Positions 492 through 45,940 of a stretch of 45,940 nucleotides of DNA are shown here, piece after piece. The DNA comes from Roseiflexus sp. (GTDB lineage Bacteria > Chloroflexota > Chloroflexia > Chloroflexales > Roseiflexaceae). The translations under genes and the position numbers were made by a program. The stretch is from NCBI GenBank assembly GCA_025055265.1, contig JANWXL010000475.1:1-45940 (forward strand), read 5' to 3'. The stretch's first letter is position 1; each line of letters starts with the position of its first letter. Below the pieces are notes generated by a model. The model searched no databases, had not been told where the DNA came from, and saw only the letters and a program-made list of their open reading frames with translations.

Positions 492-2600
492 GTGCAGGAC
501 CCATCTGTGCAAACGAGCGCTTCTCCTTTCGTAATCGACGACCTCTACCGCCTCGGCTGGCTCGAAGATCCGCAGATCAGCCCGGATGGCCGTGAGGTCG
601 CCTTTGTGCGTGTGACGATTGATCGTCCGGCGAATGCCAACCGCCGCGCGATCTGGATCGCCCCGACCGACGGCGGTCCGCCGCGCCGCTTCACCTCCGG
701 GACGAACGACTCCGCGCCGCGCTGGAGTCCCGATGGCCGCTGGCTGGCGTTCGTTGGCGTGCGCGGCGATGACCAGCCACAACTGTATGTCATACGGCGC
801 GATGGCGGCGAGGCGCGCCGCCTGACCTCGCTGCTGCAGGGGGTGAGCGACCCGGCGTGGAGCCCCGATGGACGCCGGATTGCATTCCTCTCGCGCCTGA
901 ATGCGCCCGAGAGCGCGCGCGAGGATGCTGGCGAGCCGGAACCTGAGCCTGTGGATGAGTTCACGCGCAAACAACAGGCTGAGCGCCGCAAGTACGAAGA
1001 AGAGCGCCGCTTTGACCCGCGCGTGGTGCGGCGCCTCCCCTATCGCACTGGCGTCGAGTTCTTTGACGACCGCTACGCGCAGATCTATGTCGTCGAAGTT
1101 CCTGACGATGATGACGCGCCTGTACCCGCACCGCGCCGCATCACTGACGCCGACCTCGATTTTGGCGCGCCAGTGTGGATGCCGGACGGTCAGGCGCTGC
1201 TGACGACCGCCACGCGCGATCCGGAGGGAGATTCGCAGTTTTTCTTCTTTGATGTGCTGCGCGTGCCGGTGCTGGCGGAAGGGCGCGCCGACCCGCAACG
1301 TCTAACCGCTCCCGGTTTCACCTATTTTGCGCCGCAACCGTCGCCGGATGGCCGCTGGATTGCCTGCCTCCGCTCGCCGGAGGGTCAACCGTTCGCCTCA
1401 GCGACGTCGCTGGTGGTGATGGACGCCTCCGGCGGCGAGCCGCGCGATCTGACCGCCGCCGCCGATCTCAACATCGCCGCATATGACTGGTTGCCGGGGA
1501 GCGACGGGTTGCTGTGCCTCGCCGGGTATCGCGGCGCGCAGCCGCTGTGGCGCGTCGCACTGGACGGCAGCGGGTGCGAACGGCTCGCGCAGATGCCCGA
1601 CGACCGCGTCATCGCCGAGTTCGATGCCGGTAGGAATGGGACCATCGCGTTTGTGGCAGGGGACGCCGCCAACCCCTGTGAGTTGTACGCTTGCGATGTG
1701 CGCGGCGTCGAGCGCCGGTTGACGGCGTTCAACGCGCCGTTGCTAAACGAACGGATCGTCGCACCGTTCGAGGAACTGGTCTTTACTGCGCCGGATGGGT
1801 GTGAGGTGCAGGGGTGGGTGATCCATCCGCCCGACTTCGACCCGGCGCGTCCTGGCGGTTATCCCCTCGCGGTCTACATTCACGGGGGACCCCATCTGAT
1901 GTGGGGACCGGGGGTGCGCAGCATGTGGCACGAGTGGCAGACCGCTGCTGCGCGCGGGTATGTGGTCTTCTTCTGCAACCCGCGTGGTTCCGACGGCTAC
2001 GGCAACGCCTGGCGCCTGGCGACGCAGGCGAACTGGGGGTTTGCCGATGCGCCCGATATTCACGCCGGGATCGACGCGCTGATTGCGCGCGGGTATATCG
2101 ATCCGCGTCGCGTGGCGGTCACCGGCGGTTCGTATGGCGGGTATATGACCGCCTGGCTGATCGCTCACAGCGACCGGTTCGCATGTGCGGCTGCGGCGCG
2201 CGGCGTCTACAACCTGCTGACGCAGCACAGCACCAGCGATGCGCACGAACTGGTCGAACTGGTCTTTGAAGGGTTCCCGTGGGAGAACCACGAGTTGCTC
2301 TGGCGACACTCGCCGCTGGCGTATGCCCACTGCATCACCACGCCGCTGCTCATTCTGCACGCCGAACGCGACTATCGAACGCCGATCAGCGAGGCGGAGC
2401 AGTTGTTTACCTTCCTGCGCCGGCGAAAGCAGATCGTTGAGTTTGTGCGCTACCCGCGCGAAGGGCACGAATTGACCCGTACTGGCGAGCCGGGTCATCG
2501 CGCCGACCATATGCGCCGCATTCTGGAATGGTTCGACCGGTTCTGCCAGCCGCACACCGGCAATCACGTTGCATCTCGTGGGGAGCACGCCGATGGCTGA
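492..2600 (+). CDS. S9-family prolyl oligopeptidase-type serine peptidase
   Basis: A 702-residue cytoplasmic serine peptidase of the acylaminoacyl-peptidase/dipeptidyl-peptidase type. The N-terminal ~420 residues form a beta-propeller seen as repeated SPDGR.(I/V/L)AF motifs of the WD40/TolB kind. The C-terminal ~250 residues are an alpha/beta hydrolase. The nucleophile is Ser547 in GGSYGGYM, with Asp627 in HAERDYRTP and His659 in REGHE completing the triad in the family's order. No signal peptide is visible. The start is GTG at 492 with no strong ribosome-binding site, so it could shift slightly. The stop overlaps the next gene by 8 nt, indicating co-translation. Exact peptide specificity cannot be told from the sequence. 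Confidence 0.92.
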   Translation: MQDPSVQTSASPFVIDDLYRLGWLEDPQISPDGREVAFVRVTIDRPANANRRAIWIAPTDGGPPRRFTSGTNDSAPRWSPDGRWLAFVGVRGDDQPQLYVIRRDGGEARRLTSLLQGVSDPAWSPDGRRIAFLSRLNAPESAREDAGEPEPEPVDEFTRKQQAERRKYEEERRFDPRVVRRLPYRTGVEFFDDRYAQIYVVEVPDDDDAPVPAPRRITDADLDFGAPVWMPDGQALLTTATRDPEGDSQFFFFDVLRVPVLAEGRADPQRLTAPGFTYFAPQPSPDGRWIACLRSPEGQPFASATSLVVMDASGGEPRDLTAAADLNIAAYDWLPGSDGLLCLAGYRGAQPLWRVALDGSGCERLAQMPDDRVIAEFDAGRNGTIAFVAGDAANPCELYACDVRGVERRLTAFNAPLLNERIVAPFEELVFTAPDGCEVQGWVIHPPDFDPARPGGYPLAVYIHGGPHLMWGPGVRSMWHEWQTAAARGYVVFFCNPRGSDGYGNAWRLATQANWGFADAPDIHAGIDALIARGYIDPRRVAVTGGSYGGYMTAWLIAHSDRFACAAAARGVYNLLTQHSTSDAHELVELVFEGFPWENHELLWRHSPLAYAHCITTPLLILHAERDYRTPISEAEQLFTFLRRRKQIVEFVRYPREGHELTRTGEPGHRADHMRRILEWFDRFCQPHTGNHVASRGEHADG

Positions 2601-2850
2601 GCATCATCATGCGTCCGATTCGCATCCCTGGGCTGAGTTGACCGCACCGCAAACGCTGTCGCTGGTGTTGCACGAACTGTATGCCCCGGTCAGCGCGCTT
2701 GGCGACCAGGTGAACCGGCTGGCGAACGAGACGCTTGACGATGGCGAGCGCGCCGAGATTATCGGCCACATGCGCGCACGGATCGATGATCTGGGTCGTC
2801 TGGTAGTATTGCTCAAACGGTATCTCGATGATCACCTGACTCAGGATTGA
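2593..2850 (+). CDS. Small stand-alone DHp (HisKA)-like helical protein
   Basis: An 85-residue protein. The ATG at 2593 is preceded by GGGGAG and overlaps the peptidase stop (ATGGCTGA), so it is preferred over the longer ORF start at 2569. After a His-rich N-terminus it has LVLHELYAPVSAL followed by a second amphipathic helix. This layout resembles the dimerisation/phosphoacceptor domain of histidine kinases: an H-box like SHELRTPLTAI, about 25 residues, then a return helix. No ATPase domain, transmembrane segment or receiver follows. Whether the histidine is ever phosphorylated is unknown; it may be only a helical hairpin partner. The next gene is a dynamin-like GTPase 15 nt downstream. Confidence 0.6.
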   Translation: MAEHHHASDSHPWAELTAPQTLSLVLHELYAPVSALGDQVNRLANETLDDGERAEIIGHMRARIDDLGRLVVLLKRYLDDHLTQD

Positions 2851-2865: not shown

Positions 2866-4623
2866 ATGACGCTGTTCCTGACCCGCCGAAAGCTGCTCAC
2901 CGAGCGCCAGGAGGCGCTGCTCGAGGAGATTCGCGCTGCGCTGGAGGCGCTGCGTGCAGCATTGAAACGGTTCGGCGTCGATGTGGCGCCCGCTGACGCC
3001 CGAATACTCGATGATGTGATCGCCAATCTCGACGAACTGTTCCTCCTTGTCGTCGCTGGCGAGTACAATTCAGGCAAGTCGAGTTTCATCAATGCGCTCC
3101 TGGGAGCGCCGGTGGTCGCCGAGGGGGTGACCCCGACCACCGACCGGATCACGGTTCTGCGCTACGGCGATACGCCCGGCGAAACGGTCAGCGGCGCGTT
3201 TCTGGTCGAGTATCGTTTCCCCGCCGATGTGCTGCGCCGCATGGCGATTGTGGATACGCCCGGCACAAATGCGATCATCCAGCGCCACGAAGAGTTGACG
3301 CGCAACTTCATCCCCCGCGCCGATCTGGTGCTGTTCATCACGTCCGCCAGCCAGCCGTTTTCCGCCAGTGAGCGCGCCTTTCTCGAACTCATTCGCGATT
3401 GGGGCAAAAAGGTCGTGATCGTCATCAACAAAGCCGATCTGCTCGACGACGCTGGTCTGACGGAAGTGGTCGCATTCGTTGGCAGGCATGCGGAAGACCT
3501 GTTCGGTATGCGCCCCGAAATCTTCCCTGTCTCAGCGCGGCTGGCGCGGCAGGCGCGCGATGGCGATGATCAGGCGTTGTGGGACGCCAGCCGCTTCCCG
3601 GCAATCGAACAGTATATCAGCGACACCCTCGACGAAGAGCAGCGGGTGCGTCTGAAACTCCTCTCGCCGCTCGGCGTGGCGCGTCGGCTGGCGGAACGCT
3701 ACCTGGTCGCCGTTGAGGATCGGTTGCTGTCGCTGCGCGACGATGTCGGCGCTATCGAGAACATCGAGCGACAACTTGAGCAATTCCGCAGCGATCTTGC
3801 CGACGATTTTCAGCGTCATCGCGCCGATGTCGCCAATATTCTCAATGAATTCGAACTGCGCGGCATGCATTTCTTCGACGATACCATCCGCGTCAGCAAT
3901 CTGTTCAACCTGGTGCGTCGCCAGCAGGAGATCAGCGAGGCGTTCGCGCACGAGGTGGTCGCCGATGTGCCGCAGCAGATCGAAGCGCGCCTGCAGGCGT
4001 TGGTCGACTGGATGGTGGAGAAGAACCTGCGCATGTGGCAGGGAGTTATGGACTATCTGCGCCGCGAACGGGCGGTGCAGCAGCGGAGCGGACTGATCGG
4101 CGAGATCGGCGGGACCTTCGAGTACAACCGGAATGCGTTGATCGAGTCAGTGGCCCGTGAGGCGGAAAAGGTCGTTGCGACCTATGATCGTGAGGCGGAA
4201 GCGCAGGCGCTGACCGAGGAGGTGCGTTCAGCGATTGCCAGTTCGACGCTGGTCGGCGCGGGCGCTGTCGGGATCGGCGCGTTGCTGGTGCTGTTGCTGC
4301 ACGGCGCGCTGCTCGACGTGACCGGCGTCCTGGTCGCCGGGGCGCTGGCGATCGGCGGGTTGTACATCATCCCGAATAAGCGGCGCCAGATCAAACGCCA
4401 GTTCCATCAGCGCGTCGCCGATCTGCGTGAGACGCTCGCTGACACGATGGAGCGCCAGTTCAACGCTGAACTTGACCGCATGATCACCCGCATCCGCGAC
4501 GCCATCGACCCCTACACTCGCTTCGTCTACACCCAGCACGACCATCTGCTGACGACCCAGCGCGAACTGTCGGATGCCGAAGCGGAGATTGGTCGATTGC
4601 AGGCGGAAGTGGAACGCTCTTGA
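2866..4623 (+). CDS. Dynamin-family large GTPase
   Basis: A 585-residue GTPase of the bacterial dynamin-like/mitofusin type. The G1 P-loop is GEYNSGKS at about residues 65-72. A threonine-rich G2 (TPTTD), G3 DTPGTNA and G4 NKAD follow in order. The middle of the protein is long and helical, as in dynamin stalks. Near residues 460-510 there is a hydrophobic hairpin (GAGAVGIGALLVLLL, then VLVAGALAIGGLYI), the expected membrane paddle or anchor, followed by a basic stretch and a coiled-coil tail. Family members bind and remodel membranes using GTP. It lies in a tight run with the small DHp-like gene upstream and the SAM hydrolase downstream. The role in this organism is not deducible. Confidence 0.9.
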   Translation: MTLFLTRRKLLTERQEALLEEIRAALEALRAALKRFGVDVAPADARILDDVIANLDELFLLVVAGEYNSGKSSFINALLGAPVVAEGVTPTTDRITVLRYGDTPGETVSGAFLVEYRFPADVLRRMAIVDTPGTNAIIQRHEELTRNFIPRADLVLFITSASQPFSASERAFLELIRDWGKKVVIVINKADLLDDAGLTEVVAFVGRHAEDLFGMRPEIFPVSARLARQARDGDDQALWDASRFPAIEQYISDTLDEEQRVRLKLLSPLGVARRLAERYLVAVEDRLLSLRDDVGAIENIERQLEQFRSDLADDFQRHRADVANILNEFELRGMHFFDDTIRVSNLFNLVRRQQEISEAFAHEVVADVPQQIEARLQALVDWMVEKNLRMWQGVMDYLRRERAVQQRSGLIGEIGGTFEYNRNALIESVAREAEKVVATYDREAEAQALTEEVRSAIASSTLVGAGAVGIGALLVLLLHGALLDVTGVLVAGALAIGGLYIIPNKRRQIKRQFHQRVADLRETLADTMERQFNAELDRMITRIRDAIDPYTRFVYTQHDHLLTTQRELSDAEAEIGRLQAEVERS

Positions 4624-5810: not shown

Positions 5811-7889
<2,079 letters not shown>

Positions 7890-8035: not shown

Positions 8036-9145
8036 ATGTCTATCCACCGCGTTGAGCGCGATTTGAACCGCTTTCGCCAGATTGTGCGCGGCAAGATCAA
8101 GAAGGATCTGCGCAAGTACATGTCGCAGGGCGAGATGATCGGCCGCCAGGGGCGCAAGTATGTGTCGATCCCGCTGCCGCAGATCGATCTGCCGCAGTTC
8201 CGCTACGGCATGCGCCAGAGCGGCGGCGTCGGGCAGGGCGATGGCAACGTCGGCGATCCGATCGGGCAGGGCGATGGGCAGTCGGGGCAGGGTGAGGCGG
8301 GCTCAGAACCAGGCCAGCATATCATCGAGGTTGATGTCACCCTCGAAGAACTGGCGCAGATCCTCGGCGAAGAGCTGCAACTGCCCAATATCCAGCCGAA
8401 GGGCAAGAAGAATATCATCTCACAGAAGGATCGCTACTCCGGCATCCGCCGCGTCGGACCAGACTCGCTGCGACATTTCAAACGCACCTACCGCGAGGCG
8501 CTCAAACGCCAGATCTCCTCGGGAGAGTACAACATCGCCGACCCGATTGTCGTGCCGATCCGCCAGGATATGCGCTATCGCTCCTGGAAGGAAACGCTTC
8601 AGCCTGAGTCGAATGCGGTCATCATCTATATGATGGACGTGAGCGGCTCGATGGGCGCCGAGCAGAAGGAGCTGGTGCGCATTACGGCGTTCTGGATCGA
8701 AACCTGGCTGCGCTCGCAGTACAAGGCGATCGATATTCGCTACATTGTGCACGACGCTGCCGCCAAAGAGGTCGATCAGGAAACGTTCTACCACATCCGC
8801 GAAGGCGGCGGCACCAAGATCAGCTCGGCGTACAAACTGTGCAACAAACTGATCGATGAGCGCTACCCGGCTGATGAGTGGAACATCTACCCGTTCCACT
8901 TCTCCGACGGCGACAACTGGGGTGGCGGCGATACGCGCGAATGTATTGAACTGCTGCGCACCCAACTGCTTCCCAAGGTCAACCAGTTCTGCTATGGTCA
9001 GGTGCGTTCGCTCTACGGGTCGGGCCGCTTCGCGCACGATCTTGAAGAGCACCTGGGTAAGCACGAGGCGCTGGTGATCTCGGAGATTGCTGATCGCGAC
9101 GACATCTACGACGCGATTAAGGATTTTCTTGGCAAAGGCCGGTAG
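8036..9145 (+). CDS. yhbH: YhbH/YeaH family protein (DUF444, von Willebrand A-like)
   Basis: A 369-residue member of the YhbH/YeaH family, always found next to PrkA-type kinases. The N-terminus is basic, followed by a Gly/Gln-rich low-complexity stretch ([11 protein letters not shown]) around residues 70-95. The C-terminal half is a vWA-like fold. Its MIDAS motif DVSGS is at residues 201-205, with the downstream GGGT.ISSA and SDGDN motifs expected for metal binding. E. coli YeaH acts with YeaG in sustained nitrogen starvation. The gene is the second of the trio and is separated from prkA only by the heptad array. It presumably is the adaptor or substrate partner of PrkA; that is inference. 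Confidence 0.92.
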
Positions 9146-9170: not shown

Positions 9171-11867
<2,697 letters not shown>

Positions 11868-44503: not shown

Positions 44504-45940
44504 ATGTACGCGCTCACCCGCACAACCGCCACTCTACCCCTTGTTCTGAACGCTTCACGCCTGCTGGCGGGCGATCAGTCGTTGACGGTTCGTCTGCTCG
44601 GGTTGTTCGATGTGTTGCGTCAGGCGATTGCGTTCCATGATGGTCGGATAACATGGTGGCGGTGCGCGCCGATCACGGCAACTACAGGCGAACAGTGTTA
44701 CGCTCCGAACGGTTTGAGCTTTCCATGGAGCGATGACGTCCTGCGCGAAGTCATTGAGCAGGGTAAGCCGTGCCGAAACTCTTCCCGCAACGCTCTTGTT
44801 CACTACGGCGCACCGATTGCCTGGAACGGCCAGTTGTGGGGGGTGCTCGAACTGCGCGGCGACGACCGGATGACGATCGGCGACGAGGAGCAGGCGTTGA
44901 TCGATGCGCTGGCGCCGCTGGCGGCTGCGGCTATCGCGTCTGACCACGGGACGAACGGGGCACTGACCCTGACGGCGCGACAGCAGCGGGTGATCGAGAC
45001 GTTGCGCACTGAACTCGAAGCGCCGCACGACCTGAGCAGGCTGCTGACATTTCTGCTGCGCTGGGCGCTCGATGCGACCGGCGCGGAAGCAGGCGCTATC
45101 GCTCTGGTTGACCGTGAGCGCGGAGAACTGGTGCTTCAGGCATACGAGGGGTATGGCGAAGATCCGCTCAGCCGCGACGCCTTCGGCGAAGCGCGGCGGC
45201 GCCGGAGCTGGGAGATCGGCGTTGCGGGCAAGGTCGCGCGCACGGGCCGCGCCACGTTGCTGCGCGATGTGTCGCACGACCCGGATTACCAGGCGCTGAA
45301 CCCGGAGGTGCGCGCTGAGCTGGCTGTACCGATCGGCGCCGATCCGCCGCTTGCGGTGCTCCTCCTTGATAGCCCGCGCTCGGCAGCGTTCGGCGACAGC
45401 GAGGTCGCGTTCGTCAATGCCCTGTGCGATCTGGCGGTCAATCCGCTGCGCCGCGCGCTGTACTACCAGCAGTTGCTCGAAACCAGCGCGCACCTGGGTC
45501 AGGTCTTCGCCAGCATGCCCAATGGACTGGTGCTGATGGATCAGCAGGGGCGCGTGTTGCGTCACAACCCGGCATGGCTGACAATCTGGGGGTTGCCGCC
45601 CGACTCAATGCGCGATCCGTTCTACATTCCGCTCGACCTTGTGCCGCTGTTGCTGCCCCGCCTGCGCGACCCGCTGGCGCTGACCGAACTGTGCGCCGAG
45701 GGGCAACGTTCGCCCACGGAGGTTCAGTCGCTGCTGGTACGTCTGACCAACCCGCACCAGGAGCTGATGCTCCTTTCGGCGCCAACGCGCGACAGTTTCG
45801 GGTCGCTGACCGGCAGGCTCTGGATTGTCAGCGATGTAACCCGCGAGCGCGAGGCGGATCGCCTGAAGAGCGAATTCCTGTCGATCGTGTCGCACGAGCT
45901 GCGCACGCCGCTCACGTCGATCATGGGGTACACCGAACTG
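44504..45940 (+). CDS. GAF-GAF-PAS sensor histidine kinase (truncated by window end)
   Basis: Open from ATG 44504 to the last base, 479 codons, and missing from the ORF track because it has no stop. A first GAF-like domain lies at about residues 20-150 (GQLWGVLELRG). A second at about 180-310 has GAIALVDRERGELVLQAYEG, GVAGKVARTGRATLL and ELAVPIG (quoted in parts). A PAS domain follows, with SMPNGLVLMDQQGRVLRHN. The HisKA H-box FLSIVSHELRTPLTSIMGY is at the very end. The ATPase domain lies outside. There is no transmembrane segment, so it is a cytoplasmic sensor. Its ligand is unknown. Confidence 0.9.
   Translation, partial: MYALTRTTATLPLVLNASRLLAGDQSLTVRLLGLFDVLRQAIAFHDGRITWWRCAPITATTGEQCYAPNGLSFPWSDDVLREVIEQGKPCRNSSRNALVHYGAPIAWNGQLWGVLELRGDDRMTIGDEEQALIDALAPLAAAAIASDHGTNGALTLTARQQRVIETLRTELEAPHDLSRLLTFLLRWALDATGAEAGAIALVDRERGELVLQAYEGYGEDPLSRDAFGEARRRRSWEIGVAGKVARTGRATLLRDVSHDPDYQALNPEVRAELAVPIGADPPLAVLLLDSPRSAAFGDSEVAFVNALCDLAVNPLRRALYYQQLLETSAHLGQVFASMPNGLVLMDQQGRVLRHNPAWLTIWGLPPDSMRDPFYIPLDLVPLLLPRLRDPLALTELCAEGQRSPTEVQSLLVRLTNPHQELMLLSAPTRDSFGSLTGRLWIVSDVTREREADRLKSEFLSIVSHELRTPLTSIMGYTEL

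Follow-up and report, generated by a model that had tools for sequence, protein, structure and literature searches.

A probable stand-alone degenerate DHp protein with a variable phosphoacceptor position in Chloroflexales

The small gene and its surroundings in the window

The window analyzed in this study, i.e. the whole stretch of 45,940 nucleotides from a Roseiflexus genome (G000, order Chloroflexales), carries near its beginning a peptidase gene, a small gene, and a dynamin-like gene in the same orientation. The first (492-2600, +) was assigned to the S9 prolyl-oligopeptidase family and includes a PD40 propeller. The second (P0001; 2593-2850, +) encodes a small DHp-like protein, and translation gave exactly the reading frame and the 85 residues stated in the initial annotation. 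Directly downstream, as had also been noted, lies the gene of a dynamin-like GTPase (2866-4623, +; Dynamin_N, 5.2e-26). The peptidase gene and the small gene overlap by 8 nt (2593-2600, +), and the same overlap occurs at the loci L031-L033. Of the translational coupling to the peptidase that was claimed previously, the overlap was thus found, whereas coupling through it is graded as possible.

Homologues of the small gene were identified in 35 of 82 Chloroflexales genomes (E<=4e-7), distributed over two families. Our alignment of the protein family comprised 29 members, and the comparison of loci covered 35 loci including that of the window. The translated homologues are of similar length and share the same start. 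In the column matching the ATG at 2593, methionine is present in 28 of the 29 aligned members, which leaves the TTG at 2569, the start of a longer listed frame, unsupported. Values of dN/dS among relatives ranged from 0.05 to 0.24, and judged by these ratios the gene is under purifying selection. The occurrence in 35 of 82 genomes, the shared methionine start, and the low dN/dS establish that this is a real and conserved gene, more than a chance open reading frame.

Two further features of the window were recorded. A gene for a SpoVR-like protein (9171-11867, +), situated downstream of genes for PrkA (5811-7889) and a DUF444 protein (8036-9145), is split by an intein that contains a LAGLIDADG domain. 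A HisKA match at 45866-45940 (+) represents the H-box of a true histidine kinase that is cut by the end of the contig.

Relationship to histidine kinase DHp domains

A Pfam scan of the window protein by itself gave zero domain matches, and the HATPase_c catalytic domain is missing, in agreement with the initial annotation, which had noticed that a kinase ATPase domain was lacking. A search of PDB sequences with this protein as single query yielded nothing useful. Across the 29 members, HisKA was the main recurrent match, obtained for 11 members with a best value of 3.7e-5 and 24.1 bits; of those scanned singly, none reached the gathering cut-off of PF00512 (26.9 bits). Other Pfam families matched one or two members each, at 0.012 or worse, and HPt (PF01627) was not among the 25 of 29 family matches listed for the 29 members at E<=10.

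Twenty DHp domains encoded in this genome were aligned and compared with the family profile by hhalign, which resulted in a probability of 94%, an E-value of 1e-7, and a score of 41.7, with the H-boxes in register. This relationship exceeds the background expected of helical hairpins, as the score was 13.6 for the reversed family profile, at most 19.8 for 40 column shuffles keeping the heptad phase, and at most 16.3 for 94 segments of local protein families that are unrelated. A profile of only the 23 members devoid of the histidine still scored 36.6. Searching PDB sequences with the family profile returned no histidine kinase, and the matches were for the most part helical proteins, designed coiled coils among them; hence, the relationship to DHp domains rests on the profile-profile and fold comparisons. 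In a phylum-wide search with the same profile, the next-best matches outside the order fell on the H-boxes of true histidine kinases and, in one case, on a stand-alone HisKA protein. Matches to PHROGs were weak and concerned unnamed families (phrog_857 with 8 members, best 2.3e-4), and the hits among viral folds in BFVD were likewise weak, most of them being phage proteins that are uncharacterized. Among the open-access papers searched, none described the small family by title or abstract; one may exist elsewhere.

The AlphaFold2 model of the 85-residue protein (mean pLDDT 88) is a helical hairpin of two antiparallel helices, H18-45 and H50-84. The predicted helix 1 (2644-2727, +) bears the H-box-like motif, and the predicted helix 2 (2740-2844, +), with the invariant residues L67, V72, L74, and Y77, corresponds to the return helix described earlier. 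The nine best PDB matches found by Foldseek were all histidine kinases or DHp domains (HK853, SrrB, VC2136, and LvrB), with probabilities of 0.97-1.0. Their E-values were weak, about 0.06-0.5 with a best value of 0.063, as expected for the simple fold of a two-helix protein.

Residues conserved among the 29 aligned members are W13, L16, E/D28, L29, Y30, P32, V33, S34, L36, and G37 as well as R42, L43, M60, L67, V72, L74, K75, and Y77. The N-terminal cap W13-A-E-L16 (2629-2640, +), whose tryptophan is invariant in the 29 members, is shared by two stand-alone HisKA proteins of Anaerolineae. Hydrophobic positions 29, 33, 36, 43, 67, and 74 fit the core of a four-helix DHp dimer, which suggests that the protein may dimerize.

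Taken together, the recurrent HisKA matches below the cut-off, the hhalign E-value, and the fold matches to histidine kinases bear out the HisKA-like character proposed before, and homology of the family to DHp domains is well supported by sequence profiles and modelled structure. With regard to structural identity, the protein is very probably a stand-alone degenerate DHp. It has in common with class I DHp domains (HisKA, PF00512) the two-helix hairpin, the hydrophobic core, and the H-box register x-E-L-x-x-P-[VL]-[ST]. In contrast to these, the small family scores under the Pfam gathering threshold, possesses neither a conserved phosphoacceptor histidine nor an ATPase domain, and has an invariant tyrosine at H+3, where Arg, Lys, or Asn is usual.

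Variation of the gene neighborhood

The neighbors of the small gene vary. A dynamin gene adjoins it at 8 of the 35 loci, namely in Roseiflexus and the two nearby genera represented by G061 and G060, and is missing at 27. The peptidase gene is located upstream at 19 loci, with one additional remnant, and an intact peptidase gene is not adjacent at 16, so that it is not a partner of the whole family. A gene for a protein of about 113 residues, designated c3, is located just upstream of the small gene or the peptidase gene in 10 of 11 Roseiflexaceae genomes (e.g. at 3463-3816 of L034, 3489-3836 of L031, and 3824-4165 of L055), the exception being the genome of the window. The order c3, peptidase, small gene, dynamin is kept in 5 of 6 Roseiflexus genomes and in G061; again the window genome lacks c3. 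At three other Roseiflexaceae loci (L168, L171, and L173), c3, peptidase, and dynamin genes occur with no match to the small family in the stretch compared.

These arrangements bear on the idea that the small protein is a dedicated adaptor of a peptidase-dynamin operon, e.g. for holding dynamin or peptidase at the membrane, its resemblance to DHp domains being structural only. The conserved gene order in Roseiflexus and G061 and the 8-nt overlap in the window and at L031-L033 would agree with such a function. The loci devoid of dynamin or of an intact adjacent peptidase gene, the three loci at which the operon exists minus the small gene, and a DHp relationship above all null controls speak against it, and we regard it as improbable. 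As its main reading, the dynamin adaptor was rejected because the synteny is limited to one lineage and the operon also exists without the small gene. The varying neighbors, together with the c3-peptidase-dynamin arrangements lacking it, indicate that the small gene is a movable member of operons. Operon hitch-hiking probably accounts for the proximity to peptidase and dynamin, and the functional link to dynamin implied by the initial annotation is weak and permits no reliable inference.

The c3 family is present in 59 of 82 Chloroflexales genomes and is characterized by an invariant tryptophan and a RYRYD-like motif. It had no Pfam match, and its folded model, for which related folds were sought as a clue to a partner, had no convincing fold match. 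In the window, two identical 76-nt direct repeats (210-285 and 314-389; 104 nt from start to start) are located upstream of the peptidase gene in the place occupied by c3 in relatives. The repeats are possibly related to the loss of c3 in this genome.

In the second of the two families, f2, a gene for a tandem-HTH XRE-like protein, c0, is divergent from the small gene at 21 of 24 loci (2996-3805, -, at L042, and 20 others), sometimes with the peptidase gene between them. This protein has a conserved C-terminus (LWRQLHPQ.RRATL.YIA.LLAE), and the 40 genomes in which it was found all belong to family f2. The divergent arrangement would suit a small protein that is a partner or co-regulator of this transcription factor, acting as anti-repressor of c0 or being itself under c0 control. 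Since c0 is missing from every Roseiflexaceae genome including that of the window, and occurs in genomes without the small gene, this explanation appears very improbable, and c0 as an obligate partner was rejected on its phyletic distribution.

The phosphoacceptor position and the putative mode of action

The motif LHELYAPVSAL, correctly pointed out in the initial annotation, spans residues 26-36. Its histidine, His27, is encoded by the codon CAC at 2671-2673 (+) and aligned to the HisKA phosphoacceptor. Whereas the window copy keeps this residue, the column as a whole is not conserved: Tyr occupies it in 15 of the 29 homologues, His in 6, Gln in 4, Arg in 2, and Asn and Lys in one each, so that histidine is replaced in 23. 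The two arginines were found in Roseiflexus species (CGC versus CAC), in which the remainder of the motif is conserved. In a tree of the family, the His members are united in a single nested clade that also encloses the Arg members, and Tyr is found in most lineages outside; only 4 of 28 inner branches were strongly supported, so that the tree does not give the direction of residue change.

This variability concerns the first of two functions considered previously, that of an orphan phosphotransfer protein in which His27 would take phosphate from another kinase and hand it to a response regulator, similar to Spo0B, ChpT, or HPt proteins. The histidine in the window species and five other aligned members is followed by glutamate, and two stand-alone HisKA proteins of Anaerolineae have intact HEIRNP or HEIRDP motifs, which would be in line with phosphotransfer. 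However, the replacement of histidine in most homologues, and even within one genus with the rest of the motif kept, speaks against phosphotransfer, and we consider this function highly improbable. A histidine that is not conserved in homologues was one of the observations named in the initial annotation as refuting, so that the phosphotransfer reading fails this test. The second function, a DHp-derived adaptor, gained support from the HisKA recurrence, the profile-profile score, and the fold matches. Spo0B and ChpT are DHp-like phosphotransferases which demonstrate the use of a DHp-like dimer outside a kinase. They keep the histidine and a degenerate ATPase-like domain, whereas the small family keeps neither.

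Outside its core positions, helix 1 has the residues Y30 (H+3), S34 (H+7), and R42 (H+15), which are invariant according to the column counts. The stretch from H+3 to H+15 (2680-2718, +) is the equivalent of the response-regulator-docking face of histidine kinases. As these residues match the docking face of the pseudokinase DivL, docking of a receiver domain without phosphotransfer is taken as the most likely mode of action. The protein would be what is left of a histidine kinase of which the DHp (HisKA) domain has survived as a free two-helix protein, with the ATPase domain gone and a phospho-histidine no longer needed. It presumably forms a DHp-like four-helix homodimer whose Y30, S34, and R42 face would dock a receiver domain, as in DivL, and may thereby serve a single response regulator as sensor, sink, or scaffold, independently of phosphate and not as a phosphotransfer protein. 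By analogy with DivL, we propose this complete mechanism of a kinase-dead dimer tentatively and give it slightly less than an even chance.

DivL of Caulobacter carries tyrosine in place of the phospho-histidine, dimerizes, and binds DivK~P without having kinase or phosphatase activity (PMC4211667). Binding of DivK~P is disrupted by the exchanges R553A (+3), T557N (+7), and Y562A (+12); L565 (+15) is within the modelled interface and one residue of helix 2 is also used (PMC4211667). Most members of the small family likewise have a residue other than histidine at the phospho-site, usually tyrosine, whereas the window copy has histidine. Positions +3, +7, and +15 of the DivL face are constrained in the small family too, which at the sequence level suggests receiver binding. 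In contrast to DivL, a large PAS-DHp-CA protein, the small protein is a bare hairpin with a single 85-residue domain from another phylum, and it is not claimed as a DivL orthologue. Across the 35 compared loci, no response-regulator gene was a conserved neighbor, which makes receiver docking less certain. Moreover, positions H+4, H+8, and H+11 of the docking face vary among the 29 homologues, so that the invariant Y30, S34, and R42 may serve something else.

The main rival to receiver docking is pairing of the hairpin with the DHp helices of a genuine kinase, which would block or bias autophosphorylation in the manner of a minimal antikinase. In Pseudomonas, RetS regulates GacS by taking over its DHp-DHp interface, showing that a DHp can control a kinase by substituting half of the dimer interface (PMC12148439). 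The DHp fold is conserved, as are the residues of its hydrophobic core (L29, V33, L36, L43, L67, L74), which would permit such a heterodimer, and 32 HisKA matches in its own genome offer many possible partners. On the other hand, no particular kinase was indicated by the tests run, and it is the H-face, not the core, that bears the invariant polar and aromatic residues, which suits receiver docking at least equally well. RetS differs from the bare hairpin in being a full membrane sensor. We rate kinase pairing as rather unlikely.

The stand-alone HisKA proteins with intact HEIRNP and HEIRDP were detected in two Anaerolineae genomes (G381, L080 1402-1725, +; G561, L087 1492-1779, -). Their scores against the small-family profile were 22.8 and 15.8 bits, compared with at most 13.1 bits for 20 DHp domains of histidine kinases. 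They resemble the small family in length, in the single HisKA-like domain, and in an N-terminal W..[LM]...EVL cap. They differ in the intact H-box, in the G381 protein exceeding the HisKA cut-off (34.2 bits), in forming a clade of their own that is set on a very long branch, and in their neighbors, which judged from sequence are cysS-like (cysteinyl-tRNA-synthetase-like) and rRNA-methyltransferase-like genes. A wider search for stand-alone homologues with the mixed profile A4 added to the known ones only matches in long open frames (at least 251 residues among the matches listed). This pair may represent an ancestral state or, alternatively, may have arisen separately by reduction of a histidine kinase.

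A minimal free-standing pseudo-DHp regulator acting by binding only across much of one order, a component of two-component systems pared down to its docking hairpin, with the more distant His-keeping Anaerolineae set as a possible before/after pair for the loss of phosphotransfer, is conceivable and at present rather doubtful. Pseudo-histidine kinases such as DivL keep their sensor and ATPase domains and thus it is hard to isolate what a DHp alone is capable of. Annotation by the H-box motif can mistake proteins like the one found here for phosphotransfer proteins. If the proposed function is true, a natural DHp hairpin of 85 residues with a conserved H-face and a drifting histidine would provide a clean test of binding-only regulation.
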